The notes under the pieces: generated by a model | Seen by the model: the letters and a program-made list of their open reading frames with translations, nothing else | What the model was told of the DNA's origin: nothing | Databases searched by the model: none | In this document: one piece after another, positions 27,520 to 45,805 of the stretch | Layout of the letters: every line of letters starts with the position of its first letter | Numbering within the stretch: position 1 is the first letter of the stretch | Assembly (NCBI RefSeq): GCF_000785535.1 | Contig: NZ_CP007595.1 | Location: 868,001 to 932,000 of the forward strand | Source of the DNA: Arthrobacter sp. PAMC 25486 | GTDB lineage: Bacteria; Actinomycetota; Actinomycetes; Actinomycetales; Micrococcaceae | DNA length: 64,000 nt | Reading direction: 5' to 3' | Made by a program: the position numbers and the translations under genes

Positions 27520-29372
27520 TTCTTTGACTTGTCCTTTGCCGGCTCTTCAGAGGACAGTGCAGCGATGAAGGCTTCCTGGGGGACCTCCACGCGGCCCACC
27601 ATCTTCATACGCTTCTTGCCTTCCTTCTGCTTCTCCAGCAGCTTGCGCTTACGGGAGATGTCACCGCCGTAGCACTTGGCCAGGACGTCCTTGCGGATGG
27701 CACGGATGTTCTCGCGGGCGATGATCCGGGCACCAATGGCCGCCTGGATGGGCACCTCGAACTGCTGGCGCGGAATGAGCTCGCGCAGCTTGCCCGTCAT
27801 CATGACACCGTAGGCGTAGGCCTTGTCGCGGTGTGTGATGGCGCTGAACGCATCAACCTGCTCGCCCTGGAGCATGATGTCGACCTTGACAAGGTCGGCG
27901 ACCTGATCGCCGTCGGCCTTCCAATCGAGGGAGCCGTAGCCGCGGGTCTTGGACTTGAGGATGTCGAAGAAGTCGAACACGATCTCGGCCAAGGGCAGGC
28001 GGTAGCGGATCTCCACCCGGTCCTCTGAAAGGTAGTCCATGCCGCCAAGGATGCCGCGTCGGGTCTGGCACAGCTCCATGATGGCGCCGACAAACTCGGT
28101 GGGCGCAAGGATCGTGGCGGCAACCATGGGCTCGCGAACCTCGGCGATTTTGCCCGTGGGGTATTCGCTGGGGTTGGTGACGTGGACGACCTTTTTGTCT
28201 TCCAGCGTCACCTCGTATTCCACGTTGGGGGCTGTGGAGATCAGGTCAAGGTTGTGCTCGCGCTCGAGGCGTTCGCGGGTGATCTCCAGGTGCAGCAGGC
28301 CAAGGAAACCGACACGGAAACCAAAGCCCAAGGCGGCGGAGGTCTCGGGTTCGTAGACCAGTGCGGCGTCGTTGAGCATGAGCTTTTCCAGCGCATCACG
28401 CAGCACCGGGTAATCCGTGCCGTCCAGCGGATACAGGCCGGAGAAAACCATGGGTTTGGCTTCGTGGTAGCCGGCCAGCGCCTCGGCAGCCGGCTTGTGG
28501 AACGTGGTGACGGTGTCGCCCACCTTGGACAGGCGCACGTCCTTCACACCCGTGATCAGGTAGCCCACCTCACCAACGCCGAGGCCCTTGGACGGCTTGG
28601 GCTCCGGGGAGCTGACACCAATTTCCAGAAGCTCGTGCGTGGCGCGGGTGGACATCATCTGAATCTTCTCGCGCGGGCTCAGGCTGCCGTCGATGACACG
28701 GACGTAGGTGACCACGCCTCGGTAGGTGTCGTAGACGGAGTCAAAGATCATGGCGCGGGCAGGAGCGTTCGGGTCGCCCACGGGGGCCGGCAGATCGCGG
28801 ACGATCAAATCCAGCAGCTCTTCAACACCCACGCCTGTCTTGCCCGACACCATCAAGACGTCTTCGGGCCTGCCGCCAATGAGGTTGGCAAGTTCGGCAG
28901 CATACTTTTCCGGCTGCGCGGCCGGCAGGTCGATCTTGTTCAAGACCGGAATGATGGTGAGGTTGTTCTCCATGGCCAGGTACAGGTTGGCCAGGGTCTG
29001 CGCCTCGATGCCCTGTGCGGCGTCGACCAGCAGGATGGCACCCTCACAGGCCGCCAGGGAGCGGGAAACCTCGTAGGTGAAGTCAACGTGGCCCGGGGTG
29101 TCGATCATGTTCAGGCAGTATGAGGTGCCGTCCACCTCCCAGGGAATGCGCACGGCCTGGGACTTGATGGTGATGCCGCGTTCGCGCTCGATGTCCATGC
29201 GGTCAAGGTACTGCGCCTTCATGTCACGCTGCTGAACCACTCCGGTGAGCTGGAGCATCCTATCGGCCAAGGTGGATTTACCGTGGTCGATGTGCGCGAT
29301 GATGCAGAAGTTCCTGATGATCGCCGGATCGGTCTGGGCGGGCACCGGGGCAGTGCGGGCCATGGGTGACAC
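27516..29372 (-). CDS. lepA: Elongation factor 4 (back-translocase)
   Basis: Ribosomal GTPase EF4/LepA. The 618-residue protein has G1 [14 protein letters not shown]2 [13 protein letters not shown]3 DTPGHVDF, G4 NKIDLPAA, domain II, the EF-G-like domains, and the LepA-specific C-terminus ([31 protein letters not shown]). The start is GTG at 29372 with AAGGAA about 6 bases before; an ATG 9 bases further in is the alternative. It is divergent from the PemK-like gene. Confidence 0.97.
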
Positions 29373-29532
29373 TAGGGTTCCTTACTGTTGCATGGACGCA
29401 GGGATAGCGGTTGAGTCACCGAACCGTGCAGGGTTGTGGCCGCGCGTTGCACGCCGGACACTCATTGCCATCAAGTCTCCCACGAATAAGCGCCCGGTAG
29501 AGAACCGACAGGCATTGGATACGCTTGGAAAC

Positions 29533-30135
29533 ATGGCCTCAACATCCCAACGCATCTTCAAGCTTGTCCGCTCCATTGCCGGAGCCCTGTTTAACCCCGG
29601 AAAATCGACCGGAACAGCGACGGCTCCGCCCCAGCGCAGGCCCGCCACCCGTCCCGGTCCCAAGACCAGCGCAAGGGACCGGTCCCACCCGGCTCCGCGT
29701 CCGGTGTCGAACATTCCTGCCGAGGGCCTCAGCGCACCCTATCCCGGCGACTTCCACGGCCGCGCCACGGTCACCTACTCCCCGCAGCTCGACGGTGACG
29801 CGGACCCGGGTGAAGTGGTGTGGACGTGGGTGCCGTATGAGGAGGACTACAGCCAGGGCAAGGACCGTCCGGTCCTGGTGGTGGGCAAGGCAGGGAAATA
29901 CCTGTTGGCGTTGATGATGACCACCAAGGATCACAGCAGTGACCGCCGCGGCGACAATGACTACATCGACATTGGGCCGGGTTCGTGGGACAGCCAGGGG
30001 CGGGACAGCGAAGTGAAGCTGGACCGGATTCTACAGATCTCCCCCCACGACATGCGACGCGAAGGGGCCATCCTCGACAAGGCACGGTTTTCCTCCGTTG
30101 CTGCCGGCCTGCGGCAACGGCACGGCTGGAAGTAG
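29533..30135 (+). CDS. PemK/MazF-family protein with N-terminal extension
   Basis: The C-terminal about 125 residues match the PemK/MazF fold: GEVVWTWVPYEED, KDRPVLVVGK, LLALMMTTKDHS, and a KLDRILQIS strand near the end. The first about 70 residues are a basic Pro/Arg/Thr-rich extension. ATG 29533 gives 200 residues, longer than a classic MazF (about 110-120). No antitoxin frame is seen next to it: lepA is upstream and divergent, rpsT downstream. It may be a housekeeping relative rather than a toxin. Catalytic function is not proven. Confidence 0.8.
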   Translation: MASTSQRIFKLVRSIAGALFNPGKSTGTATAPPQRRPATRPGPKTSARDRSHPAPRPVSNIPAEGLSAPYPGDFHGRATVTYSPQLDGDADPGEVVWTWVPYEEDYSQGKDRPVLVVGKAGKYLLALMMTTKDHSSDRRGDNDYIDIGPGSWDSQGRDSEVKLDRILQISPHDMRREGAILDKARFSSVAAGLRQRHGWK

Positions 30136-31322: not shown

Positions 31323-31378
31323 CGCAACAATTGCGTCTCCGCAAACTCTTGCGTTAACGCAATCATTGCGTCTAACGT
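31323..31378 (+). promoter_or_regulatory. GH15 promoter with six alternating MarR-type half-sites
   Basis: CGCAA and TTGCG alternate six times: starts at 31323, 31331, 31340, 31349, 31358 and 31366. The central pair forms a perfect 14-bp palindrome, TTGCGTTAACGCAA (31349-31362). TTGCGT at 31349 also serves as a -35 box, with an 18-bp spacer to TAACGT (31373-31378). The ATG follows 6 bases later, so the mRNA is probably leaderless. The same half-sites lie at the marR promoter. Confidence 0.7.
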
Positions 31379-31384
31379 CAAGTT

Positions 31385-33154
31385 ATGTCGGCTGTCATTC
31401 AGGTCCCTGAATCGCCTCACGTGTTGCGTGAGTACGCCATAATTGCCGACGGGGAACGTTCGGCCTTGATCGGACCCCGCGGGGATGTGGCGTGGATGTG
31501 TGTGCCGCGCTGGGACAGTGAGGCAGTCTTTTCCTCCCTGATTGGTGGTGGCGGTACTTTTGCGGTGACCCCCCTCAGCGACCGGTACGTCTGGGGTGGC
31601 AGCTACCAGGATGGGACACTGATCTGGACGAGCCGCTGGGTCACCAGCGGGGGAATCATCGAATGCCGGGAGGCGCTGGCGCAGCCGGCGGAGCCACATA
31701 CGGCAGTGCTGTTGCGCCGGTTGCGTGCAGTCGCCAGCCCTGCCGCCCTGCGTGTGGTTCTTAAAGCGGGCGCTGGCTTCGGCAAATATGGCATGAATCG
31801 GCTCAAATGTGCTGACGGTGTCTGGACAGGCCGCAGCGGTTCCCTGCACCTGCGCCTGTCCGGGGCCGAGAAGGCCACGGTGCACGATGGCGAACTGCAG
31901 CTGAGCCTGGAGGTTTCCACTGGCGGGGAGCATGACCTGGTCCTGGAACTTTCCGACCAGCCGTTCACCTCAGGCCCCGTGGCTGCGGCCGCGGCGTGGG
32001 CGGAAACGGAACACAGCTGGAAAGACGCCGTCCCGGCCCTGTTGGACACCATCGCCCCCGATGATGCCCGCCAGTCCTATGCCGTGTTGCGCGGCATGAC
32101 CGGTGGCGGTGGCGCCATGGTCGCCGCAGCAACACTGGGCCTGCCCGAGCGCGCCCAGGAAAAACGTAATTACGACTACCGCTATGCCTGGATCCGCGAC
32201 CAGTGCTATGCCGGTCAGGCCGTAGCAGCGTGCGGGGCGCACCCGTTGCTCGATGACGCTGTCAGGTTCGTGACCAGCAGGCTTTTGGCGGACGGGCCGG
32301 GCCTGAAACCCGCCTATACGGTAACGGGCGGACGGGTTCCGGACGAAACTGATCTTGGCCTGGCCGGGTACCCGGGCGGTTCCGCGAAAGTGGGGAACTG
32401 GGTCAATGAACAATTCCAACTGGATGCCTTCGGCGAGACGCTGCTGCTCTTCGCCGCTGCCGCCACCCATGATCGTTTGGACCTGGAAAACTGGCGGGCT
32501 GCGGAGACAGCGGTACAAGCCATCACGGAGCGCTGGCAGGAACCAGACGCCGGAATTTGGGAGCTCAACAACGACAGGTGGGCGCATTCACGGCTGACCT
32601 GCGCGGCCGGATTGCGCAGCATAGCCGTCCACGCCCCGGCTGCCCAAGGCGCGGGATGGACGTCGCTGGCTGACACAATAGTTGCCGACACGGCCAAGGA
32701 TTCTCTGCACCCCAGCGGCCGGTGGCAGCGCAGCCCCGGCGATGACCGGGTGGATGCAGCCTTGCTGCTGCCCATTTTGCGTGGCGCAGTCCCGGTGCAC
32801 GACCCGCGGAGTCTGGCAACCGTAGCGGCCATCCGGGCTGATCTGGGCCGCGAAGGGTATCTCTACCGTTTCCGCCAAGACACGCGCCCATTGGCGCAGG
32901 CGGAGGGGGCCTTCCTGCTGTGCGGCTTTGACATGGCCATGGCCCTTCACCAGCAAGGCCACAAGGTCGAGGCGATGCACTGGTTTGAACGCAACCGTGC
33001 CGCCTGCGCCACCACAGGTTTGTTCACCGAGGAATACGACGTCGAACAGCGCCAGCTGCGCGGTAATTTCCCGCAGGCATTCGTCCACGCCGCCATGCTC
33101 GAGGCCGGCAAACGCCTCGCCACGCCGCCGGCGCTTGAGCGAGATTACCCCTAG
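31385..33154 (+). CDS. Glycoside hydrolase family 15 protein (trehalase/glucoamylase-like)
   Basis: Predicted cytoplasmic (alpha/alpha)6 inverting glycosidase; bacterial relatives act on trehalose or malto-/isomalto-oligosaccharides. The 589-residue protein has an N-terminal beta-sandwich (ALIGPRGDVAWMCVPRWDS), then the barrel with NYDYRYAWIRDQCY, AGIWELNNDRWAHSRLTC (candidate general acid Glu), SPGDDRVDAALLLP, and TEEYDVEQRQLRGNFPQAFVHAAML (candidate general base Glu). No signal peptide is present. It is the first gene of a rightward operon with an SDR 9 bases after its stop, controlled by the half-site array. The substrate is not known. Confidence 0.9.
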   Translation: MSAVIQVPESPHVLREYAIIADGERSALIGPRGDVAWMCVPRWDSEAVFSSLIGGGGTFAVTPLSDRYVWGGSYQDGTLIWTSRWVTSGGIIECREALAQPAEPHTAVLLRRLRAVASPAALRVVLKAGAGFGKYGMNRLKCADGVWTGRSGSLHLRLSGAEKATVHDGELQLSLEVSTGGEHDLVLELSDQPFTSGPVAAAAAWAETEHSWKDAVPALLDTIAPDDARQSYAVLRGMTGGGGAMVAAATLGLPERAQEKRNYDYRYAWIRDQCYAGQAVAACGAHPLLDDAVRFVTSRLLADGPGLKPAYTVTGGRVPDETDLGLAGYPGGSAKVGNWVNEQFQLDAFGETLLLFAAAATHDRLDLENWRAAETAVQAITERWQEPDAGIWELNNDRWAHSRLTCAAGLRSIAVHAPAAQGAGWTSLADTIVADTAKDSLHPSGRWQRSPGDDRVDAALLLPILRGAVPVHDPRSLATVAAIRADLGREGYLYRFRQDTRPLAQAEGAFLLCGFDMAMALHQQGHKVEAMHWFERNRAACATTGLFTEEYDVEQRQLRGNFPQAFVHAAMLEAGKRLATPPALERDYP

Positions 33155-33163
33155 GGAGCAACG

Positions 33164-34186
33164 ATGAAAACAGTTCGCCAGGTCGTTGTAGTGACAGGAG
33201 CCAGCGGTGGGATTGGCCGGGCCACCGCCATCGCCTTCGGACGCCGCGGCGCCACGGTTGCTCTGTTGGCCCGGGGCCAGGCGGGGCTCGACGGCGCCGC
33301 CGCGGAAGTGGAGGCCGCCGGGGGCACGGCATTGATCGTACCGGTGGACACGTCAGATTCTGCTGCCGTCGACGCGGCTGCGGAGCGGGTTGAAAACGAA
33401 CTGGGCCCCATTGATATATGGGTCAACGTGGCCTTCACCTCCGTCTTCGCCCCTTTCTCCCAGATCAAACCGGAGGAGTTCGCCCGGGTCACCGCCGTGT
33501 CCTACCTGGGGTACGTCTATGGAACCATGGCCGCCTTGACCCGGATGCGCACCCGGAACCGGGGCACGATTGTCCAGGTCGGCTCTGCCTTGGCCTATCG
33601 CGGCATACCGCTCCAGAGCGCCTATTGCGGTGCCAAACATGCCATCCAGGGGTTCAATGAATCGTTGCGGTGTGAGCTGCTCCACGAACATAGCGGTATC
33701 CACAACACCATGGTGCAAATGCCTGCCGTGAACACCCCACAGTTCTCCTGGGTTCTTTCCCGGCTGCCCAAAAAAGCCCAGCCGGTACCACCCATTTATC
33801 AGCCCGAAGTGGCGGCCCGCGCCGTCGTCTATGCCGCTGACCATCCTCAGCGCCGCGAATATTGGGTCGGTGGCAGCACCGCCGCAACCCTGTTAGCCAA
33901 CGCCGTGGCCCCGGGACTGCTGGATGTCTATCTGGCCCGCACCGGTTTCGCCTCGCAGCAGACCAGCGAACAGCGGCCCGCGGACCAGCCGGTCAACTTG
34001 TGGGAACCAGCGGATGCCGATACCGACTTCGGCACGCATGGCGTCTTTGACCACCGCTCCACAGCACGGAGCCACCAAGTGTGGGCGTCTCAACATCACG
34101 GGATGTTGGCGGTGGGGGCAGCTGGCAGTGTGTTGGGACTGGCCGCAGTTGCAGGGGTCCTGCTCGGGCGCTGGGTGCGGCAATGA
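33164..34186 (+). CDS. SDR family oxidoreductase with C-terminal membrane helix
   Basis: NAD(P)-dependent short-chain dehydrogenase of 340 residues. It shows TGASGGIGRATA, the Asp/Asn-type strand VPVDTSD, IWVNVAF in place of the usual NNAG, and the catalytic Ser with YCGAK. The C-terminal about 100 residues exceed the core and end in a hydrophobic helix (LAVGAAGSVLGLAAVAGVLLG), so the enzyme may be membrane-tethered. GGAG precedes the ATG by 6 bases. It overlaps the next gene by 4 bases. Confidence 0.9.
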   Translation: MKTVRQVVVVTGASGGIGRATAIAFGRRGATVALLARGQAGLDGAAAEVEAAGGTALIVPVDTSDSAAVDAAAERVENELGPIDIWVNVAFTSVFAPFSQIKPEEFARVTAVSYLGYVYGTMAALTRMRTRNRGTIVQVGSALAYRGIPLQSAYCGAKHAIQGFNESLRCELLHEHSGIHNTMVQMPAVNTPQFSWVLSRLPKKAQPVPPIYQPEVAARAVVYAADHPQRREYWVGGSTAATLLANAVAPGLLDVYLARTGFASQQTSEQRPADQPVNLWEPADADTDFGTHGVFDHRSTARSHQVWASQHHGMLAVGAAGSVLGLAAVAGVLLGRWVRQ

Positions 34187-34518
34187 AGACGCTTGAGTTC
34201 TGCCGGGGCTTGCTGGGACTGTGCCAACTGATCAGGCCCCAGCTGCTGTACCGAGCCGCCACCGGCACCGCCCCGTCCCCCGGCGCGGCAGTGGTCGTGC
34301 GGGTTCTCGGTGCCCGGCACGTAGTCCAGGCGCTGTTGCTGACGCGGGCCGGATCGACGGCGCAGGGTGGGAAGACCTGGCATCGTTGCGGTGCGCTCGT
34401 CGACCTTGCCCATGCGGCAACGATGGTCGCCTTGGCCTGTGGAAATGGGCGTTGGCGCAAACCAGCCGGCATTGATGCGGCCCTGGCCTCGACCTTCGCC
34501 GTGCTGGAGTCACGATGA
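34183..34518 (+). CDS. Hypothetical protein coupled to the SDR
   Basis: A 111-residue frame whose ATG overlaps the SDR stop (ATGA). Alternating hydrophobic stretches (AAVVVRVLGARHVVQALLL, ALVDLAHAATMVALACG) suggest a small membrane-associated protein. No family is recognised. It is the third gene of the GH15-SDR operon and ends one base before the convergent marR stop. Confidence 0.65.
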   Translation: MKTLEFCRGLLGLCQLIRPQLLYRAATGTAPSPGAAVVVRVLGARHVVQALLLTRAGSTAQGGKTWHRCGALVDLAHAATMVALACGNGRWRKPAGIDAALASTFAVLESR

Positions 34519-34519
34519 A

Positions 34520-35077
34520 TCAGCTACCAGTCCCCGGCCGGTCACGGTGTGGCCCATCCTTCAAGGTCAGGGCGAAGCGTTCATCGTCACGGATTTCCCC
34601 AGCCGCCTGTGCGAAGGCCTCCAACGCCGGCCCCAAGGTTGCGCGTAGTGTGGCGGGCATCCGGTTCATGACGGCCGCGATGGCCGTACGGCGGTGTTCC
34701 ATCACCGTATCCACCAGTTCCTTGCCGTGTGCACTGAGGGCAAGGAGTAGATACCGCCGGTCCGCCGGGTTGTCCCTGCGATCCAGCAGGCCCGCCGCGA
34801 CCAGCCGGTCGCAGGTCCTGGTGGCATTGGAGGGATGCACGCCCAGATCAGCGGCCACCGCGCCGAGATTTTGCGGGCCATGCGTAGCTATGAGGACCAG
34901 TACGCGCAGCTGCGGGGAGGTGACGCGATACTCAACCTCTGCCACCGATTGGGCGATGACGGCCAAGAACACGCGTGCGGCACGCATGGCCGCATCAATG
35001 TCATCGACCCCGTCAGCCGAGCTTTCGGCGGCCTTCGGGTCGTCACCTGCAAGGCCGTGGGTAATTAAGGTGTTCAC
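34520..35077 (-). CDS. MarR-family transcriptional regulator
   Basis: Winged-helix dimeric regulator. GTG at 35077 gives 185 residues: an N-terminal dimerisation helix (AMRAARVFLAVIAQSVAEV), TSPQLRVLVLIATHGPQNLGAVAADLGVHPSNATRTCDRLVAAGLL as the DNA-binding helices, and the wing DRRDNPADRRYLLLALS. ATG at 35131 would place the operator and promoter inside the coding region, so the GTG is preferred; it sits 7 bases after a -10 box (GATACT), implying a leaderless mRNA. It lies in the middle of the metabolic cluster with the same half-sites at its own promoter and at GH15, so it is the likely regulator of both. The ligand is unknown. Confidence 0.88.
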   Translation of the reverse strand: MNTLITHGLAGDDPKAAESSADGVDDIDAAMRAARVFLAVIAQSVAEVEYRVTSPQLRVLVLIATHGPQNLGAVAADLGVHPSNATRTCDRLVAAGLLDRRDNPADRRYLLLALSAHGKELVDTVMEHRRTAIAAVMNRMPATLRATLGPALEAFAQAAGEIRDDERFALTLKDGPHRDRPGTGS

Positions 35078-35084
35078 GCCTACG

Positions 35085-35122
35085 AGTATCCATCTTTTAG
35101 TTGCGAACACGCAATCTTTGCG
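35085..35122 (-). promoter_or_regulatory. marR promoter with operator half-sites
   Basis: Read leftward: CGCAA - 3 bases - TTGCG - 4 bases - CGCAA (35122 to 35101). TTGCGT (35114-35109) is the -35 box, an 18-bp spacer follows, and GATACT (35090-35085) is the -10 box. The layout copies that of the GH15 promoter, including the spacer. The sites also face the rightward operon that starts at 35222. Confidence 0.7.
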
Positions 35123-35221
35123 TGCATTCATCTATTGGCCGAGCCAGGACCATCTGAGCATGGACCGCCCTATGATCCCTACACGGAAAGCTCAGGCCCT
35201 CGGGCGAGGGAAGGACCGAAC

Positions 35222-35707
35222 ATGAAGAATCCGTTCCATCAACATATCCGGGCGCAGGGAGTCGAGCCTGGCGACGTCGTGCACGGCATCGACAGGATGG
35301 TGCGCAACATTGAAACAGGCCGCTTTGAGCGTTCACTCGCAGCGCTCACGGCCGCCGGAGCGCTGGTCACCGCGGCGGAAATCTACTTTGAACACGACAA
35401 GGCCAGCTTCGGAAACAAATGGATGTGGGTGCCGGTAATCCTGGGACCCCTCGGGGCCGTGGCGGGGGTGGCAGGGGTTTGCAGCAAACGTATGGCAAAA
35501 ACAGCGCTCCCGCTGGCCTCGGCCGTCATTGTCGCCAACGGCCTCCAGGGAACGTACTTCCATGCGCGCGGTATTGCCCAGAAGCCCGGCGGCTTCAAAA
35601 ACCTGCGCTACAACATGGAAATGGGTCCTCCCCTGTTGGCCCCGCTGCTGGTGACCATGGTCGGTGGCATGGGCCTGCTCGCGGCTGTGCTGAGGCGGGA
35701 AAAATGA
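35222..35707 (+). CDS. Four-helix membrane protein of the GMC cluster
   Basis: A 161-residue protein with about four membrane helices (roughly 40-60, 68-88, 93-113, 136-156). Two helix ends carry a similar YF-x0/1-H arrangement (EIYFEHDK and GTYFHARG). No family is recognised. GGGAAGGA precedes the ATG, and TATGAT at 35171 is a good -10 candidate. The stop overlaps the gluconate dehydrogenase subunit 3 gene by 4 bases, so it is likely a membrane partner of that complex. Confidence 0.75.
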   Translation: MKNPFHQHIRAQGVEPGDVVHGIDRMVRNIETGRFERSLAALTAAGALVTAAEIYFEHDKASFGNKWMWVPVILGPLGAVAGVAGVCSKRMAKTALPLASAVIVANGLQGTYFHARGIAQKPGGFKNLRYNMEMGPPLLAPLLVTMVGGMGLLAAVLRREK

Positions 35708-36351
35708 GCACGCTGCCTCTTCCCACCAGCGATGGCGGCGCCCGGTTTCCGGGTTTTAGCGCCGCCAGCCAGGTCAAACATTGGGATACCGCAACGGCGT
35801 CCGTCGTCATGGGCCGGCTGGGCCGGCCACCGGATATCCACTTTTTCACCCCGGACGAAGAAGCCGCCGCAGGCGCCCTGTTCAACCAGCTCCTGGACCA
35901 ACGCGAGGAGCCGCGCGTGCCCGTCGTGGCCATGGTGGATGCCCGGTTGGCTGCCCAGGAAACGGACGGCTGGCACTACGAGGACATGCCCACGGATGCA
36001 CAAGCATGGCGGGGGACGTTGGCCGGCCTGGATGATGATGCCCGGCTTCGCTGCAGCACACGGTTTGCCACAGCCACGTGGAACGAGCAGACACGGCTGT
36101 TGCAGAGCATCCAAAACCTTGGCACGGCATTGTGGCACGGCTTCCCCGCGCAACAAGTCTGGAGTCTGTGGACCCGCTACGCGTGCACAGCGTTTTACGC
36201 CCATCCGTGGGCGTGGGATGAAATCGGTTTCGCGGGGCCGGCCTACCCGCGAGGCTACAAAAACATGGGTGTGGACGCTTTGGAGCCCTTTGAGGTTCGT
36301 GATGTCCGTCCAGCCGCGGACCCGACACGGCCAAAGTTGGCATCCCCATGA
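35704..36351 (+). CDS. Gluconate 2-dehydrogenase subunit 3 family protein
   Basis: Small subunit that accompanies membrane GMC dehydrogenases. The 215-residue protein contains FFTPDEEAAAGALFNQLL near the start and the family end motif WAWDEIGFAGPAYPRGYKNMG. No Tat or Sec signal is apparent, although many family members carry one. ATGA overlaps link it to the membrane protein upstream and to the GMC subunit downstream, indicating a complex. Confidence 0.85.
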   Translation: MSTLPLPTSDGGARFPGFSAASQVKHWDTATASVVMGRLGRPPDIHFFTPDEEAAAGALFNQLLDQREEPRVPVVAMVDARLAAQETDGWHYEDMPTDAQAWRGTLAGLDDDARLRCSTRFATATWNEQTRLLQSIQNLGTALWHGFPAQQVWSLWTRYACTAFYAHPWAWDEIGFAGPAYPRGYKNMGVDALEPFEVRDVRPAADPTRPKLASP

Positions 36352-37982
36352 GCACTGTGCGCCAGCGCAACGAATCGGCGTGGCTGCTCCCTGCCGGGCC
36401 GGGCACCAACCACGGCCTGCGTGAGCAGATGCGCCACTTCGCGGACGGGGACGAGGTCGATATCGTCATCGTCGGTTGCGGTGCCGGCGGGTCCACCCTG
36501 CTTCAGCGCCTGGCGCGGGCGGGCTGGCGGGCGGTGGCCATGGACGCCGGCCCGTTCTGGGATCCGGAACGCGACTGGGTCAGTGACGAGGCCGGTTCAC
36601 ACCACCTTTACTGGACCGAACCCCGGGTCATCGCAGGGAACGATCCGGTGCCCCTGGGCTCGAACAACTCGGGCCGGGGCGTGGGCGGGTCGATGGTCCA
36701 CTACGCCGGGTACGTGCCCAGGTTCCATCCCAGCGACTTCCGCACCCGGACCCTGGACGGGGTGGGTGCCGACTGGCCCCTGCAATACCAGGATCTCAGG
36801 CACTACTACCAGGACATTGAGGAGGAACTGCCGGTGGCCGGGGAACACTGGCCCTGGGGTGACCCGCACGGCTACCCCCACAGCCCCCATCCCGTCTCCG
36901 GCAACGGCGAAATCTTTCAGCGCGGCGCCCTGGCCTGTGGCATTACCGCGAAAGTGGGTCCGGTGGCGATCACCAACGGCCGCTTCGGCAACCGGCCCCA
37001 CTGCATCTACCGCGGCTTCTGCCTGCAAGGGTGCAAGGTCAACGCGAAAGCCTCACCGCTGATCACCCATATTCCCGATGCCCTGGCCCACGGCGCCGAG
37101 GTGCGCCCCGATTCCATGGTGACCCGTGTCGACGTCGATGCTCGAACCGGACTGGCCACGGGCGTGCACTACATGCGCGGGGGCGTGGCCCGTTTTCAGC
37201 GTGCCCGCATGGTCGCCGTTGCCGGCTACTCGATCGAGACCCCCCGCCTGTTGCTCAACTCCGCCTCCCCACGGTTTCCCGACGGGCTGTGCAACGACTT
37301 CGACCAGGTGGGCCGCTACCTCATGGTCCAGGGCGCGCCCCAGACCGCCGGTCGCTTCGACGCCGAGGTGCGGATGTGGAAGGGTCCGCCACCAGAAGTC
37401 AGCAGCGAGGAATTCTACGAAACTGACCCGACGAAACCCTATAAGCGCGGCTTCTCCATCCAAACCGTCTCGCCGCTGCCGATCACCTGGGCCGAACATG
37501 TCATGGCCCAAGGCCACTGGGGCCCCGCGCTGCGCAACTACATGAGCGACTACGTCCACTGGGCGTGTCTGGGAGCTTTGTGTGAATTCCTCCCCCAGGC
37601 CGGGAACCGGGTTACCCTCGCGAATGAGAGGGACCGGCATGGGCTGCCCGTGGCCCGTTTCAGCTATTCCCAAGGTGAAAACGACCGTGCCTTGATGACA
37701 GCAGCCCAGGAAAAGATGGAACTCATCCTCACCGCGGCCGGCGCCGATGACGTCATCACCATCAACCGCTACGCCCACCTGGTGGGTGGGGCCCGCATGG
37801 CCGGAACGCAGGAGGACGGCGTGGTCGACGCGGACTGCCGCAGCTTCGCCGTGGCGAACCTGCTCATCACCGATGGCAGTGTCCTGCCCACTCAGGGCAG
37901 CGCCAACCCGGCCCTGACCATCATGGCCGTCGCGGCCCGGGCCGCCGACCGGCTGCTCCTCAACGGGGGCCGGCGCCACTAA
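36348..37982 (+). CDS. GMC family FAD oxidoreductase (gluconate dehydrogenase-like large subunit)
   Basis: FAD-dependent alcohol/sugar-acid dehydrogenase of 544 residues. The dinucleotide fold GCGAGGS lies at 43-49. Further motifs are SNNSGRGVGGSMVHYAGYVPRF (FAD/active-site loop), CIYRGFCLQGCKVNAKAS (a Cys-rich stretch usual in gluconate 2-dehydrogenase-like members), YAHLVGGARM (active-site His), and ITDGSVLPTQGSANPALTIMA (flavin closing). The cytochrome c subunit usual in three-subunit gluconate dehydrogenases is not found in the cluster. It is coupled to subunit 3 by a 4-base overlap. Confidence 0.9.
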   Translation: MSTVRQRNESAWLLPAGPGTNHGLREQMRHFADGDEVDIVIVGCGAGGSTLLQRLARAGWRAVAMDAGPFWDPERDWVSDEAGSHHLYWTEPRVIAGNDPVPLGSNNSGRGVGGSMVHYAGYVPRFHPSDFRTRTLDGVGADWPLQYQDLRHYYQDIEEELPVAGEHWPWGDPHGYPHSPHPVSGNGEIFQRGALACGITAKVGPVAITNGRFGNRPHCIYRGFCLQGCKVNAKASPLITHIPDALAHGAEVRPDSMVTRVDVDARTGLATGVHYMRGGVARFQRARMVAVAGYSIETPRLLLNSASPRFPDGLCNDFDQVGRYLMVQGAPQTAGRFDAEVRMWKGPPPEVSSEEFYETDPTKPYKRGFSIQTVSPLPITWAEHVMAQGHWGPALRNYMSDYVHWACLGALCEFLPQAGNRVTLANERDRHGLPVARFSYSQGENDRALMTAAQEKMELILTAAGADDVITINRYAHLVGGARMAGTQEDGVVDADCRSFAVANLLITDGSVLPTQGSANPALTIMAVAARAADRLLLNGGRRH

Positions 37983-38058
37983 AACATCAAAACATCAAAC
38001 CACAGCACCGCAGCCGCGACCGCAGCTCGTGAACACATCCACCTTGGAGGACGGAAAC

Positions 38059-39852
38059 ATGGCAAAGGACAAAGTTTCAGACTATCTGCTGGCACGGCTG
38101 CGTGAGTGGGGTGTCGATCACGTCTTCGCATTCCCCGGCGACGGGATCAACGGCATCCTGACAGCGTTCGGGCGTGCGGACAACCACCCGAAATTCATCC
38201 AATCACGGCACGAGGAAATGTCCGCGTTCGAGGCCGTGGGCTACGCCAAATTCTCCGGGCGACTCGGTGTCTGCATGGCAACCTCGGGACCGGGGGCCAT
38301 CCACCTCCTCAACGGCCTCTATGATGCGAAACTTGACCATGTCCCGGTGGTGGCCATCGTTGGACAGACCGCCCAATCAGCCATCGGCGGGGCTTACCAG
38401 CAAGAAGTGGACCTGGTGACATTGTTCAAGGATGTCGCCGGCGACTACGTACAACTGGTGACGGTCCCCGAACAACTCCCCAACGTTTTGGACCGGGCCA
38501 TCCGCATCGCCTTGGCCGAACGGGCGCCCACCGCCATCATCATCCCCTCGGACGTGCAGGACCTGGAATACTCCCCACCCACCCACGCCTTCAAAATGGT
38601 GCCCTCCAGCCTCGGCGTGCACTGGCCCACCACCACCCCCGGCATGGAAGGGATCCGCGCAGCGGCGGCCCTGCTCAACGCCGGCACCAAGGTGGCCATG
38701 CTCATCGGCTCCGGGGCACGGGACGCCCGCGAAGAAGTGCAGCAGGTCGCCGAGATCCTCGGCGCCGGGGTGGCCAAGGCGCTGCTGGGCAAGGATGTCC
38801 TCTCCGACGAGCTGCCCTACGTGACAGGCTCCATCGGATTGCTGGGCACCCGTCCCAGCTACGAACTCATGATGGATTGCGACACACTGCTCACCGTCGG
38901 CTCAAGCTTCCCGTACACCCAGTTCATGCCCGAACCCGGCCAGGCCCGCGGCGTCCAGATCGACATCGACGCCAAAATGATCGGCATGCGCTACGCGTAC
39001 GAGACCAACATCGTTGGCGACGCAAAAACCACGCTCAAGGCACTGATCCCCCTGCTGGAACGCAAGGAAGAGCGGTCCTGGCGGGAAACCATCGAAGCGA
39101 ACGTCGCCCGGTGGTGGGAGACCATGGAGATGGAAGCCGCAGTGGAAGCCAACCCCATCAACCCCATGCGCCTGTTCTCTGAACTTTCACGTCGGCTGCC
39201 GGAAAACGCCATCATCACAGCAGATTCCGGGTCATCGGCCAACTGGTATGCCCGGCAGCTGAAATTCCGTGGCAGCATGCGCGGCTCCCTCTCGGGCAAC
39301 CTTGCCACGATGGGTCCCGGCGTGCCCTACGGCATTGGTGCCAAGTTCGGCTGCCCGGATAAGCCGGTGATTGTTTTTGCCGGCGACGGCGCCATGCAAA
39401 TGAACGGCCTGGCGGAACTGATCACCATCAAGCACTACTGGCAGGAATGGGCCGACCCCCGGCTGATCATCGCCGTCCTGCACAATAACGACCTGAACCA
39501 GGTCACCTGGGAGATGCGTGCCATGGAAGGGGCACCGTCCTTTACCCAGTCGCAAACACTCCCGGACGTCCCCTACGCTGCGTTCGCGGAACTTCTGGGC
39601 CTGCAGGGATTTGCCGTGGAGAACCCGGATGAGCTCGGCCCGGTGTGGGAACGGGCGCTGGCAGCGGACCGCCCCACCGTCCTGGACGTCCGGGTCGACC
39701 CCGATGTTCCGCCGATCCCCCCGCACGCGACCTTCGAACAGGCCCTCGACAGTGCCAAGGCCGTGCTCAAGGGCGATCAGAACGCGTGGGGTTTCATCAG
39801 GGAAGGCGTCAAGACCAAACTCCAAGAATTCCTGCCCCACAAGGACAGCTAG
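38059..39852 (+). CDS. Thiamine-diphosphate enzyme (pyruvate oxidase/dehydrogenase-like)
   Basis: ThDP-dependent enzyme of the acetolactate synthase/pyruvate oxidase superfamily. ATG 38059 has GGAGG 8 bases before and gives 597 residues. Visible: the catalytic Glu region SRHEEMSAFEAVGYAKFSG, a central FAD/nucleotide-type domain, and the ThDP motif GDGAM (about 442) to HNNDLNQ (about 476). It most resembles the PoxB-like group often labelled thiamine pyrophosphate-requiring protein. It lacks a clear C-terminal membrane-binding helix. It follows the GMC gene after 76 bases, probably in one operon; the substrate (pyruvate or another 2-oxo acid) is unknown. Confidence 0.88.
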   Translation: MAKDKVSDYLLARLREWGVDHVFAFPGDGINGILTAFGRADNHPKFIQSRHEEMSAFEAVGYAKFSGRLGVCMATSGPGAIHLLNGLYDAKLDHVPVVAIVGQTAQSAIGGAYQQEVDLVTLFKDVAGDYVQLVTVPEQLPNVLDRAIRIALAERAPTAIIIPSDVQDLEYSPPTHAFKMVPSSLGVHWPTTTPGMEGIRAAAALLNAGTKVAMLIGSGARDAREEVQQVAEILGAGVAKALLGKDVLSDELPYVTGSIGLLGTRPSYELMMDCDTLLTVGSSFPYTQFMPEPGQARGVQIDIDAKMIGMRYAYETNIVGDAKTTLKALIPLLERKEERSWRETIEANVARWWETMEMEAAVEANPINPMRLFSELSRRLPENAIITADSGSSANWYARQLKFRGSMRGSLSGNLATMGPGVPYGIGAKFGCPDKPVIVFAGDGAMQMNGLAELITIKHYWQEWADPRLIIAVLHNNDLNQVTWEMRAMEGAPSFTQSQTLPDVPYAAFAELLGLQGFAVENPDELGPVWERALAADRPTVLDVRVDPDVPPIPPHATFEQALDSAKAVLKGDQNAWGFIREGVKTKLQEFLPHKDS

Positions 39853-39854
39853 CC

Positions 39855-40958
39855 ATGGACTCCGACCCGACCATCGAACGGCTGGAGGTATCGGTGTACC
39901 GGGTACCCACGGACGCACCTGAAGCAGATGGCACCTGCGCGTGGGACTCCACCACCATGGTCCTGGTCCAGGCCCACGCCGGCGGTGCCACCGGACTGGG
40001 CTGGAGCTACGCACCCGCTGCCTGCGCATCTCTGATCACCGAGCTTCTGCAACCCGCCGTTATCGGCCTGCCCGTACTCGACGTCGGACGGGCTTCCGCC
40101 TCGATGCTCCAGGCCGTGCGCAATGCCAGCCGCCCGGGCACTGTCGGCTACGCCATCTCCGCCGTCGATTGCGCCCTCTGGGACCTCAAGGCCAGGCTGC
40201 TGGAGCTGCCCCTGCACCGACTTCTGGGCACCATCCTGGACAAGGTGCCCGTCTATGGCAGCGGCGGATTCACCAGCTATGACGACCGACAGCTGACCGA
40301 TCAACTCACCGGCTGGGCGCTGGAGCAGGGAATACCGCGGGTGAAGATCAAGATCGGCGAATCCGCCGGCACCCGAACGGCCAGGGACCTGGCACGAATG
40401 CGGCAGGCACGGACGGTGATCGGGCCCGACGTCGAACTCTTCGTCGACGCCAACGGCGGCTACACTGCCAAACAAGCCATCCGAGTCATGACCGAGGCAC
40501 GGGACCTGAACATCCACTGGCTGGAAGAACCCGTCTCCTCGGACAACCTCACGGGGCTGCGGGAGGTCCGCGACCGGGTCGATGCGGACGTTGCCGCCGG
40601 CGAATACGGGACCGACCTTCTCTACTACCAGAGACTGTGCGCAGCCAACGCCCTCGATTGCGTGCAGACGGACGTTTCACGGTGCGGCGGCATCACCCAA
40701 TGGCTGCGCATAGCATCCCTGGCCGAGGCGTACGGGCTGGAGATCTCCGGACACTGCGCCCCGCACCTGAGCGTCCATGTCGCCGCAGCCACCCCGAACT
40801 TCCGGCACCTGGAATGGTTCCACGACCACGTCCGCATCGAAACCAATTTCTTCGACGGCTGCCTAGACCCAGCTGGCGGAACTCTCACACCCTCTACAGC
40901 ACCCGGCAACGGACTCAGCCTGCGCAGCGCAGACATGGCCCCCTATCGGATCGGATAA
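39855..40958 (+). CDS. Enolase-superfamily dehydratase/racemase (mandelate racemase-like)
   Basis: Mg-dependent enzyme of the mandelate racemase/muconate lactonising group. The 367 residues show the catalytic Lys pair (VKIKIGE), the metal ligands Asp (VDANGG), Glu (LEEPVS) and Glu (AAGEYG), and the late His (GHCAPH). This K-x-K and His pattern fits a sugar-acid dehydratase (for example gluconate or galactonate type) or a lactone isomerase; which one is not resolved. It starts two bases after the ThDP-enzyme stop, so the two are surely co-expressed. Confidence 0.87.
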   Translation: MDSDPTIERLEVSVYRVPTDAPEADGTCAWDSTTMVLVQAHAGGATGLGWSYAPAACASLITELLQPAVIGLPVLDVGRASASMLQAVRNASRPGTVGYAISAVDCALWDLKARLLELPLHRLLGTILDKVPVYGSGGFTSYDDRQLTDQLTGWALEQGIPRVKIKIGESAGTRTARDLARMRQARTVIGPDVELFVDANGGYTAKQAIRVMTEARDLNIHWLEEPVSSDNLTGLREVRDRVDADVAAGEYGTDLLYYQRLCAANALDCVQTDVSRCGGITQWLRIASLAEAYGLEISGHCAPHLSVHVAAATPNFRHLEWFHDHVRIETNFFDGCLDPAGGTLTPSTAPGNGLSLRSADMAPYRIG

Positions 40959-41034
40959 GAAAAACGACACACCATCCCACCACCCACACAATGCAGAACG
41001 GCCCGTCCCAGGCCACGCACCAAGGAGTCATCTC

Positions 41035-41481
41035 ATGGTCCCTCAAACTAAAGAACCCCCACCAGAGTTACACCCGGTGGGCGACGACGACCGCCCCTGG
41101 TGTTGCCGCTGCGGAACCAATGAATATCTGTGTTTTGAATCCATTACTGCTGTCCCACACACATTCGATGTGGTGGACGTCGACTATGTCTGCACGAAGT
41201 GTGAGAGCTTTTATGGTCACCTGGTTCCCAAGACAAAAATGGACAAGAGCATTTTGAGGGAGTGCGGCATCCCCTACATGATCACCACGGCGGAGGGTTA
41301 CCTCCACTGTGGCCACGTCATGACCCCCACCGGGGAGCGCATGCCGATGCTCCATGCGCGACTGGGCCCCCACCATGACTCGTGGCGACCTCCTGATCAT
41401 TCCCCGATGCAGGCAGTGCGCTGCCGGTGCGGCTTTCAAATGATGGTCCCCCTCGAGCGCGGAGCCAAATACTCCCGGTAA
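41035..41481 (+). CDS. Zinc-ribbon hypothetical protein
   Basis: A 148-residue protein with AAGGAG 7 bases before the ATG. It has two Cys clusters: CCRCG with CTKC about 32 residues later, and a C-terminal pair formed by LHCGH and CRCG. This pattern suggests one or two zinc ribbons. No family is recognised. It is the last or next-to-last gene of the rightward metabolic operon. Confidence 0.7.
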   Translation: MVPQTKEPPPELHPVGDDDRPWCCRCGTNEYLCFESITAVPHTFDVVDVDYVCTKCESFYGHLVPKTKMDKSILRECGIPYMITTAEGYLHCGHVMTPTGERMPMLHARLGPHHDSWRPPDHSPMQAVRCRCGFQMMVPLERGAKYSR

Positions 41482-41892: not shown

Positions 41893-42543
41893 ATGAGCAA
41901 TCCACGCTTTGGCACACGTGTCCACCGTTCACGATTTCGGCTGGCCGTCATGGTCGCTGTTGGCATCCTCACCGCCTTATTGGTGGGATTTTCCGGCTCC
42001 TGGGACTATGCCCCTGCCGTCGGATGGGGTGCAGCGTCCATAACATTCCTGTGGTGGGTCTGGGCGATTATCGGCCGGCTTGATCCTGCCGAAACCGCCG
42101 TCCACGCCAGCCGTGAAGACCCCGGCCAGGCCAGCTCCGATGTACTCGTCTTGGCCGCCACGTTGGCCAGTTTCGGTGGGGTCGTCCTCATTTTGATGAC
42201 CGCAGGTTCCGCCCAAGGGGGAATGAAAGCCGCAATCCTCGGTCTGGCCCTAGGCAGCGTTGCCCTGTCCTGGTTTCTCGTCCACACCTTATTCACGCTC
42301 CGCTACGCCCGGCTCTTCTACCGCGACCGGAAAGGGGTCGACTTCAATGAAGACACCCTGCCTCACTACCGTGACTTTGCCTACCTGGCGTTCACCGTGG
42401 GCATGACGTTTCAGGTCTCCGATACCGACCTGACAACCGATGCCATCCGTTCAACTGCCTTGCGCCACGCCTTGCTCTCCTACCTGTTGGGAGCCATCAT
42501 ATTGGCCACCACCATCAATCTCGTCGCCGGCCTCATCCACTAA
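41893..42543 (+). CDS. DUF1345 membrane protein
   Basis: Integral membrane protein of unknown function, 216 residues, with five to six hydrophobic helices. Family marks are SSDVLVLAATLASFGGVVLIL, SWFLVHTLFTLRYARLFYRD, and DFAYLAFTVGMTFQVSDTDLT, all characteristic of DUF1345. The start is ATG 41893. It stands about 100 bases after the small hypothetical gene and may have its own promoter. Confidence 0.88.
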   Translation: MSNPRFGTRVHRSRFRLAVMVAVGILTALLVGFSGSWDYAPAVGWGAASITFLWWVWAIIGRLDPAETAVHASREDPGQASSDVLVLAATLASFGGVVLILMTAGSAQGGMKAAILGLALGSVALSWFLVHTLFTLRYARLFYRDRKGVDFNEDTLPHYRDFAYLAFTVGMTFQVSDTDLTTDAIRSTALRHALLSYLLGAIILATTINLVAGLIH

Positions 42544-44956: not shown

Positions 44957-45805
44957 GTGGCTCAACGGTGTTCGAAGGGCAAGACCATCAAAAAGGAATT
45001 GAAAGACGCCGCGGCTGCGGCCGAGGACGCGTCGAATTCACGGGTCTTTGTCATTGCCGCCCGCACCGGTTTCGCCGTCAGCGGCCTACTGCACATACTC
45101 ATCGGTGCCATCGCCATCCAGCTGGCGTTCGGTAGGGGCGGACAGGCCGACCAGGGCGGTGCCATGGCCCAACTGGCAAGACAACCGGCGGGAGCACTCC
45201 TGCTGTGGATTGCTGTCACGGCGTGTGGGGCGCTGGCCCTGTGGCAGCTCAGTGAGGCCATTTTCGGATATAGCCAGTTGGAATCCAAAGCGAAGTTTGG
45301 GAAGAAAATTTCCGCAGCTGGACAGGCTGTTGTGTTTCTGGTTATTGCTGCCGCCTTCGCCTCATTCGCGCTCGGAAGCGGAAAGAACAGCGGACAATCC
45401 ACCAGCGACGCGACCGCACAGATCATCAAAGCACCAGCGGGTCCGCTGTTGCTGATCGCCATTGGAGTTGCCTTCGCCATAGTCGGAATAGTCTTTGGCG
45501 TACGAGGGATCAATAGATCCTTCAAGAAGCAGCTGCTGTTGCCGGCCTCGGGAACGGCCCGGTCCATAGTCACTTTTTTGGGGGTGGTCGGCTACCTCGC
45601 GAAGGGTATTGTGCTGCTCCTGGTTGGACTGTTGTTTGTCATTGCCACCGTCGAATCCCGACCCAAGGAATCTACAGGACTCGATGGTGCACTCAAGGCG
45701 GTGCGCGAGCAGCCCTTTGGCATCTACTTGCTGATCCTCATCGGCGTGGGGCTGGTTTGCTATGGCCTGTACCAAATAACCAAGGCCAGATTCGCCCGCA
45801 TGTAG
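44957..45805 (+). CDS. DUF1206 membrane protein
   Basis: Integral membrane protein of unknown function, 282 residues, with about six helices in three repeated pairs, each pair starting at an ARxGF-like motif: AARTGFAVSGLLHILIGAIAI, KISAAGQAVVFLVIAAAFA, FLGVVGYLAKGIVLLLVGLLF. This three-repeat layout is DUF1206. The start is GTG 44957; the true start may be up to 14 codons later, since the Shine-Dalgarno-like GAAGGG lies inside this frame. Confidence 0.85.
   Translation: MAQRCSKGKTIKKELKDAAAAAEDASNSRVFVIAARTGFAVSGLLHILIGAIAIQLAFGRGGQADQGGAMAQLARQPAGALLLWIAVTACGALALWQLSEAIFGYSQLESKAKFGKKISAAGQAVVFLVIAAAFASFALGSGKNSGQSTSDATAQIIKAPAGPLLLIAIGVAFAIVGIVFGVRGINRSFKKQLLLPASGTARSIVTFLGVVGYLAKGIVLLLVGLLFVIATVESRPKESTGLDGALKAVREQPFGIYLLILIGVGLVCYGLYQITKARFARM

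Follow-up and report, generated by a model that had tools for sequence, protein, structure and literature searches.

For dehydrogenases built on a GMC flavoprotein, the closest described systems are BcGDH, the FAD glucose dehydrogenase complex of Burkholderia cepacia (PDB 6a2u), and the fructose dehydrogenase complex, both of which contain a small subunit of the Gluconate_2-dh3 type. The gamma subunit of BcGDH is described with a twin-arginine translocation (Tat) signal and its electron-transfer subunit with three haems (PMC9727119, PMC6719666), the ligands of its 3Fe-4S cluster are given as Cys212, Cys218 and Cys222 (PMC6719666), and related complexes are reported to oxidise glucose, fructose and 2-ketogluconate (PMC9727119). 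This paper deals with a gene cluster of Arthrobacter sp. PAMC 25486 which encodes relatives of these subunits. The cluster lies in a window of 64,000 nucleotides, the whole stretch of DNA analysed, comprising bases 868001-932000 of a genome assembled as a single contig of 4.59 Mb. In gene order, a GH15 glycosidase, a short-chain dehydrogenase/reductase (SDR) and a small open reading frame (ORF) face a convergent marR gene, which is followed by the genes for a four-helix membrane protein (MP), a Gluconate_2-dh3 protein (GDH3), a GMC flavoprotein, a PoxB-like thiamine diphosphate (ThDP) enzyme and an enolase-type enzyme. MP, GDH3 and GMC will be referred to as the triad. Judged from comparative sequence analysis, the nine genes form a genuine unit that is kept as a set and, by prediction, regulated jointly.

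A pattern scan with MP, a search limited to close relatives, was run on the 84,980 species of the genome_contigs collection and gave 55 loci related to the cluster. Neighbours were counted in the fetched surroundings, at most 10 kb on each side, by identity thresholds. The loci belong mostly to Actinomycetota (Arthrobacter, Leifsonia, Nocardioides, Terrabacter, Humibacillus, Antrihabitans, Actinoplanes, Streptomyces and others), with two metagenome-assembled genomes labelled Dehalococcoidia and Acidobacteria among them. In 54 of the 55 loci, the genes of the triad share one strand and keep the order MP, GDH3, GMC; GDH3 relatives are present in all 55. The sole exception to the triad is a decayed copy (L036), with GDH3 broken and GMC missing; loss of its GMC through the contig end was considered and rejected, since decay was seen instead. 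Near the triad, the ThDP gene was identified in 46 loci, the enolase-type gene in 43, the SDR gene in 34, GH15 in 30, the small ORF in 20 and marR in 16. The triad occurs together with all four sugar genes (ThDP, enolase, SDR and GH15) in 21 loci, ten of which add the small ORF and marR, and at least two of the four lie near it in 48 loci, in shuffled orders. The exact gene order of the window is found in three loci only (L017, L019 and L033), a fourth (L031) differing by an inverted GH15, and the remaining complete loci are reshuffled. That the gene set is kept despite this reshuffling argues for function and not for mere shared descent. An initial annotation of this DNA had staked the unit on recurrence in other genomes, which is borne out for the set and, for the order, at those three loci. 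The triad is the invariant core, and the remaining genes are modular.

The same association is seen on the level of whole genomes. Of 58 genomes, own genome included, the same 13 contain MP and a close GMC (at least 76%), and a close GH15 (at least 53%) is present in all 13 genomes with MP, compared to one of the 45 others (G051). MP itself was identified in 11 of 23 genomes of the genus, again with its own, and in 13 of 296 genomes of a phylum sample, a patchy distribution. In the phylum sample, relatives of GDH3 and GMC adjoin MP in 12 of 12 loci besides that of the window, down to 29% MP identity; the MPs of L076 and L081 were detected by profile only.

The initial annotation had noticed the same CGCAA/TTGCG half-sites at the GH15 and marR promoters, and this holds. 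CGCAAN{3,4}TTGCG occurs four times in the window (31323, 31340, 31358 and 35110), against 0.26 expected in shuffles, and interleaved TTGCGN4CGCAA sites at 31331, 31349 and 35101 join these into the two arrays listed in Table 1. Genome-wide counts of such sites are 11 and 13, about the same as for the reversed control pattern (10 and 11); overlapping arrays occur in the genome only at these two promoters. As the start of marR, the GTG at 35077 is likelier than the ATG at 35131, which would place the operator inside the gene.

For the related loci, a marR locus was defined by a MarR relative of at least 45% identity near the triad. Operator sites are present in all 16 marR loci versus four of the 39 others (Fisher p 1.6e-10, on related and so non-independent genomes), and strict sites outnumber those of the reversed control by 48 to 1 in the marR loci and by 12 to 3 in the others, where seven of the 12 lie in L029. 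The genomes of all four site-bearing loci lacking a nearby marR hold a MarR relative, with 63-65% identity for L014, L015 and L043 and 48-54% for L029; for L014 and L015, this gene sits on the contig of the fetched locus, some 2 and 3 kb outside it. For six of the 35 site-less loci, a MarR of at least 45% was found elsewhere in the genome (L021 75%, L038 55%, L044 52%, L032 49%, L046 and L063 45%). Many sites precede GH15, SDR, the marR-MP divergence, ThDP, or genes for a cytochrome b561-molybdopterin protein and aldose epimerase, and some lie elsewhere. Among adjacent divergent marR-MP intervals of related loci, 12 of 13 contain a site at no more than one mismatch, and a search of the interval in L033 found none. 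The predicted operator is shared between genera and occurs along with marR, consistent with the earlier proposal of one regulated unit under a shared operator. The MarR gene in the genome of L021 adjoins a second GH15-SDR copy with operator (L101, G352:C34), arranged GH15-SDR-ORF-marR, in which the ThDP match beyond marR is fragmented. One lone CGCAATTGTTGCG was seen outside the cluster at L102:1548-1560, between glycerate-kinase-like and substrate-binding-protein genes (names read from the translations).

BcGDH and fructose dehydrogenase are the best solved relatives of the GMC protein, which shares with BcGDH the catalytic subunit with flavin adenine dinucleotide (FAD) fold and the aligned catalytic His and Asn. 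C219, C225 and C229 of GMC align with the three cluster ligands of BcGDH and, like the catalytic H477 and N520, are at least 96% conserved in 55 sequences. These 3Fe-4S ligands imply a one-electron transfer out of the enzyme. The small subunit is of the same type in all three systems; however, Cys213 of BcGDH, which makes a disulfide to the gamma subunit, corresponds to I220 here. A second difference to BcGDH, a complex of the periplasmic type, is that a Tat signal was seen neither on GDH3 nor on GMC. A simple pattern matched one of 56 GDH3 and none of 55 GMC N-termini, and the single match, the GDH3 of L068, has no signal-like hydrophobic stretch. Furthermore, in contrast to BcGDH and fructose dehydrogenase, no gene for a multihaem cytochrome c was found nearby, and the four-helix membrane protein is added. 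In a six-frame scan of the 55 loci and the window, which did not extend to the rest of the genomes, no frame of at least 80 amino acids with two or more CXXCH motifs lies within 6 kb of MP; single CXXCH motifs occur in 22 frames of 19 of the 56 sources and were not inspected singly. The triad would be a dehydrogenase of the cytoplasmic side, in which the small MP takes the place of the cytochrome c and delivers electrons to quinone.

For MP, 5695 homologues were found at E <= 0.001. The names given among the 120 listed are 'hypothetical protein' or 'uncharacterized', except for one DoxX, a family which is not among the 13 weak Pfam families of 51 MP sequences; the MP of the window has no Pfam family above cut-off. 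The AlphaFold model (mean pLDDT, the predicted local distance difference test, of 78) contains four long helices, at residues 34-61, 66-87, 89-120 and 139-158, plus shorter ones. E53, E57, H58, D59, H114, K121, P122 and G123 are invariant in the 51 sequences and, as judged without coordinates, appear to sit close to where helices 1 and 3 end, on the same side of the bundle. R34, R37, K89, R90, K93, R158 and R159, judged in the same way, appear to lie on the opposite side, which by the positive-inside rule we take to face the cytoplasm. MP may dock the complex and take up its electrons for quinone.

Relatives of MP are present in four of 72,556 plasmid records, from Frondihabitans (L082), Deinococcus (L083 and L085) and Granulicella (L084). 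In L083, GDH3 and GMC are fused to one protein of 865 residues, and the cluster includes ThDP, enolase, SDR and GH15 and is preceded by cytochrome oxidase, Rieske and cytochrome b genes. On the Granulicella plasmid, a single ORF (L084:8938-9885) holds two tandem MP copies, each with 42-43% identity to the MP of the window, hinting that MP may work as a dimer. Both Deinococcus plasmids carry a sensory rhodopsin transducer gene between GMC and GH15 (L083:12082-12468 and L085:12133-12519), and a bacteriorhodopsin gene (L082:290-1165) lies about 7 kb before MP on the Frondihabitans plasmid.

For the GH15 protein, a signal peptide is not apparent in the translation. It has the TREH_N and GH15 domains in common with the trehalases TreH1 and TreH2, the TreH1 alignment spanning residues 17-574 of 589, but scores 203 bits against a TreH1 cut-off of 820. 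The SDR has a hydrophobic C-terminal tail, as read from the translation, and a Pfam search with the small ORF gave no match. The ThDP enzyme belongs to NF006129, which bears only the name 'thiamine pyrophosphate-requiring protein', and its best PDB match is 3ey9 (E 2.5e-85). It has the same three ThDP domains as PoxB, the same catalytic Glu and the same Gln and Glu flanking two changed sites, where F112 and F465 of PoxB correspond to Q114 and Q481. In an alignment of 42 sequences (the window and those 41 loci, out of 46 with a match, that reach 60% coverage; three are gapped at the F112 site), every sequence covering the two sites has Gln there (39 of 39 and 42 of 42). Both Phe residues presumably line the pyruvate site, and a literature search on their roles gave nothing; the exchange to Gln points to a substrate of higher polarity. 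The enolase-type enzyme, with the generically named 3cyj as best PDB match (E 4.1e-100), shares KxK, three carboxylate metal ligands and the His of the mandelate racemase subgroup with acid-sugar dehydratases (talarate/galactarate, galactonate), but scores well under all the NCBIfam equivalog cut-offs listed. Its KxK, DANG, EEP, AGE and His motifs are at least 93% conserved (42 loci and the window). Two genes of the KDPG-aldolase family are present elsewhere in the genome. Genes for aldose 1-epimerase lie near about 14 of the 55 triads and for a cytochrome b561-molybdopterin protein near about 13, several behind the same operator; these counts are approximate, as ORFs were called roughly by length and codon-position GC and families typed by one Pfam-scanned member per cluster. 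The epimerase genes point to a free aldose. The GH15 protein, these mutarotase neighbours, the acid-sugar-type dehydratase and the PoxB-like enzyme fit a sequence from sugar to acid, 2-oxo acid and decarboxylation.

The features of the cluster are collected in Table 1. All genes named in the initial annotation are present, and its list lacked the small ORF. The nine genes of the conserved set span 31385-40958. The zinc-ribbon gene, which had been counted with the unit, is not conserved with it: four of the 55 loci contain a relative (31-40% identity), and the match reaches 60% coverage in one. Joining of most genes by ATGA overlaps was overstated, since these occur at three of the seven same-strand junctions (34183, 35704 and 36348). 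The gaps amount to 2 nt between ThDP and enolase, 9 nt between GH15 and SDR, and 76 nt both between GMC and ThDP and between enolase and the gene at 41035. In the surroundings, an ORF at 29245-30135 has a C-terminal PemK/MazF-type toxin domain (PF02452, E 2.3e-10), and its start, as called, overlaps a LepA-like gene on the opposite strand (LepA read from the translation). DUF1345 (41893-42543) and DUF1206 (44957-45805) membrane proteins are encoded downstream, and the DUF1345 gene also follows the cluster in L017.

Table 1. Genes and predicted operator arrays of the cluster, with positions in the window
Feature	Position	Strand	Basis or remark
Predicted operator array A	31323-31370		six alternating CGCAA/TTGCG half-sites directly 5' of GH15
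GH15 glycosidase, glucoamylase/trehalase-like	31385-33154	+	PF00723, E 3.6e-43; TREH_N, PF19291
SDR, PRK07109/NF005495 type	33164-34186	+	476.6 bits, cut-off 264
Small hydrophobic ORF, 111 amino acids	34183-34518	+	ATGA overlap with SDR; sequence
MarR-family regulator	34520-35131	-	PF01047, E 1.3e-14
Predicted operator array B	35101-35122		TTGCG-N4-CGCAA-N3-TTGCG between marR and MP gene
Four-helix membrane protein (MP)	35222-35707	+	AlphaFold model; proposed quinone-side/anchor subunit
Gluconate_2-dh3 (gamma/hitchhiker-type) subunit, GDH3	35704-36351	+	PF13618, E 4.8e-16
GMC flavoprotein, catalytic subunit	36348-37982	+	best PDB match 6a2u_B, E 1.1e-51
PoxB-like ThDP enzyme, PRK08273/NF006129	38059-39852	+	1004.9 bits, cut-off 724
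Enolase-superfamily (mandelate racemase subgroup) dehydratase-type enzyme	39855-40958	+	PF13378, E 2e-60; PF02746
Cysteine-rich zinc-ribbon-like protein	41035-41481	+	outside the conserved unit; no Pfam above cut-off

With a probability of about one half, the unit is an intracellular module for sugar oxidation which is repressed by MarR and includes a respiratory dehydrogenase of its own. In the cytoplasm, the GH15 enzyme would release an aldose (glucose being the likeliest) from trehalose or an alpha-glucan, and the freed aldose would be oxidised by GMC, held by the GDH3 subunit. Electrons would pass from FAD to the 3Fe-4S cluster and via MP to quinone, MP standing in for the cytochrome c subunit and anchoring the complex at the cytoplasmic face of the membrane. 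The enolase-type enzyme would dehydrate the sugar acid to a 2-oxo-3-deoxy acid, which would then be decarboxylated by the PoxB-like enzyme or leave via KDPG-type aldolases coded elsewhere. MarR would sit on both arrays, that of GH15 and that of its own divergent promoter, until released by a ligand, perhaps an acid of the pathway. Release, oxidation, dehydration and decarboxylation, as set out in the initial annotation, are kept as the most likely order of steps, read from the gene families. More tentatively, the triad might represent an unrecognised class of respiratory sugar dehydrogenases in Actinomycetota and on plasmids of Deinococcota and Acidobacteriota, in which an MP of about 150 residues replaces cytochrome c and reduces quinone from the cytoplasmic side; the PRK08273 ThDP enzyme might then decarboxylate a sugar-derived 2-oxo-3-deoxy acid in an oxidative or simple reaction that is as yet undescribed, and the whole would be a phosphorylation-free route for glucose.

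Several observations weigh against a sugar-oxidation module of this kind. At strong thresholds, three of the 55 triad loci have none and four have one of the four sugar genes nearby. In G051 (locus L100, G051:C4), marR with operator, SDR, small ORF, ThDP, enolase and GH15 are clustered in the absence of MP, GDH3 and GMC, so that the two halves are separable. No marR of at least 45% is present near 39 of the 55 triads, and regulation therefore differs there. No redox cofactor motif, haem or quinone site was identified in MP, for which fold comparison was uninformative. No lactonase was found by Pfam among the cluster genes, the only part of the genome searched for it. Finally, GMC paralogues of about 34-38% occur without MP in the same family and order (L096-L099). 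The small protein adjoining each of these paralogues was considered as GDH3-like and rejected, since a Pfam search matched none of the four to a family.

Among the alternatives, the same triad might act on a substrate other than glucose, namely a sugar acid, a polyol or a cyclitol, with GH15 serving a parallel turnover of trehalose. This is rather unlikely, though in its favour are the range of sugars oxidised by the related complexes, the only distant relationship of GMC to BcGDH, and an enolase-type enzyme that falls under all NCBIfam dehydratase cut-offs and matches a protein with a generic name. The near-exclusive occurrence of a close GH15 in genomes with MP and the mutarotase genes of 14 loci argue for glucose instead. 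Unlikely as well, and more so, is that MP is merely a membrane anchor or chaperone while the electrons of GMC go to a soluble carrier. The missing cofactor motif and the uninformative fold match would suit such a role, but not the joint occurrence of MP and GMC in 54 of the 55 loci and in the same 13 genomes, the invariant Glu, His and Asp in or beside the helices of MP, or the one-electron transfer implied by the cluster ligands. A stress or storage-mobilisation island, co-regulated under desiccation or osmotic stress and forming no single linear pathway, agrees with the modular gene order, the separable halves, the patchy distribution and a PRK-type SDR lacking a known substrate, but is improbable given overlapping operator arrays at these two promoters only and encoded families whose chemistry makes a plausible chain.

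The literature search found no description of the gene set as a unit or of an MP-bearing dehydrogenase. As far as these searches show, the enzymes belong to known families, and the MP-bearing dehydrogenase and the gene combination are undescribed. If the sugar-oxidation module is real, a function would be provided for the large MP family and for the NF006129 ThDP enzymes, and a flavo-iron-sulfur sugar dehydrogenase would feed the respiratory chain without a cytochrome c. The direct-electron-transfer enzymes used in glucose sensors would gain relatives. With the conserved operator, the regulon would be predictable and testable in several actinobacterial genera.

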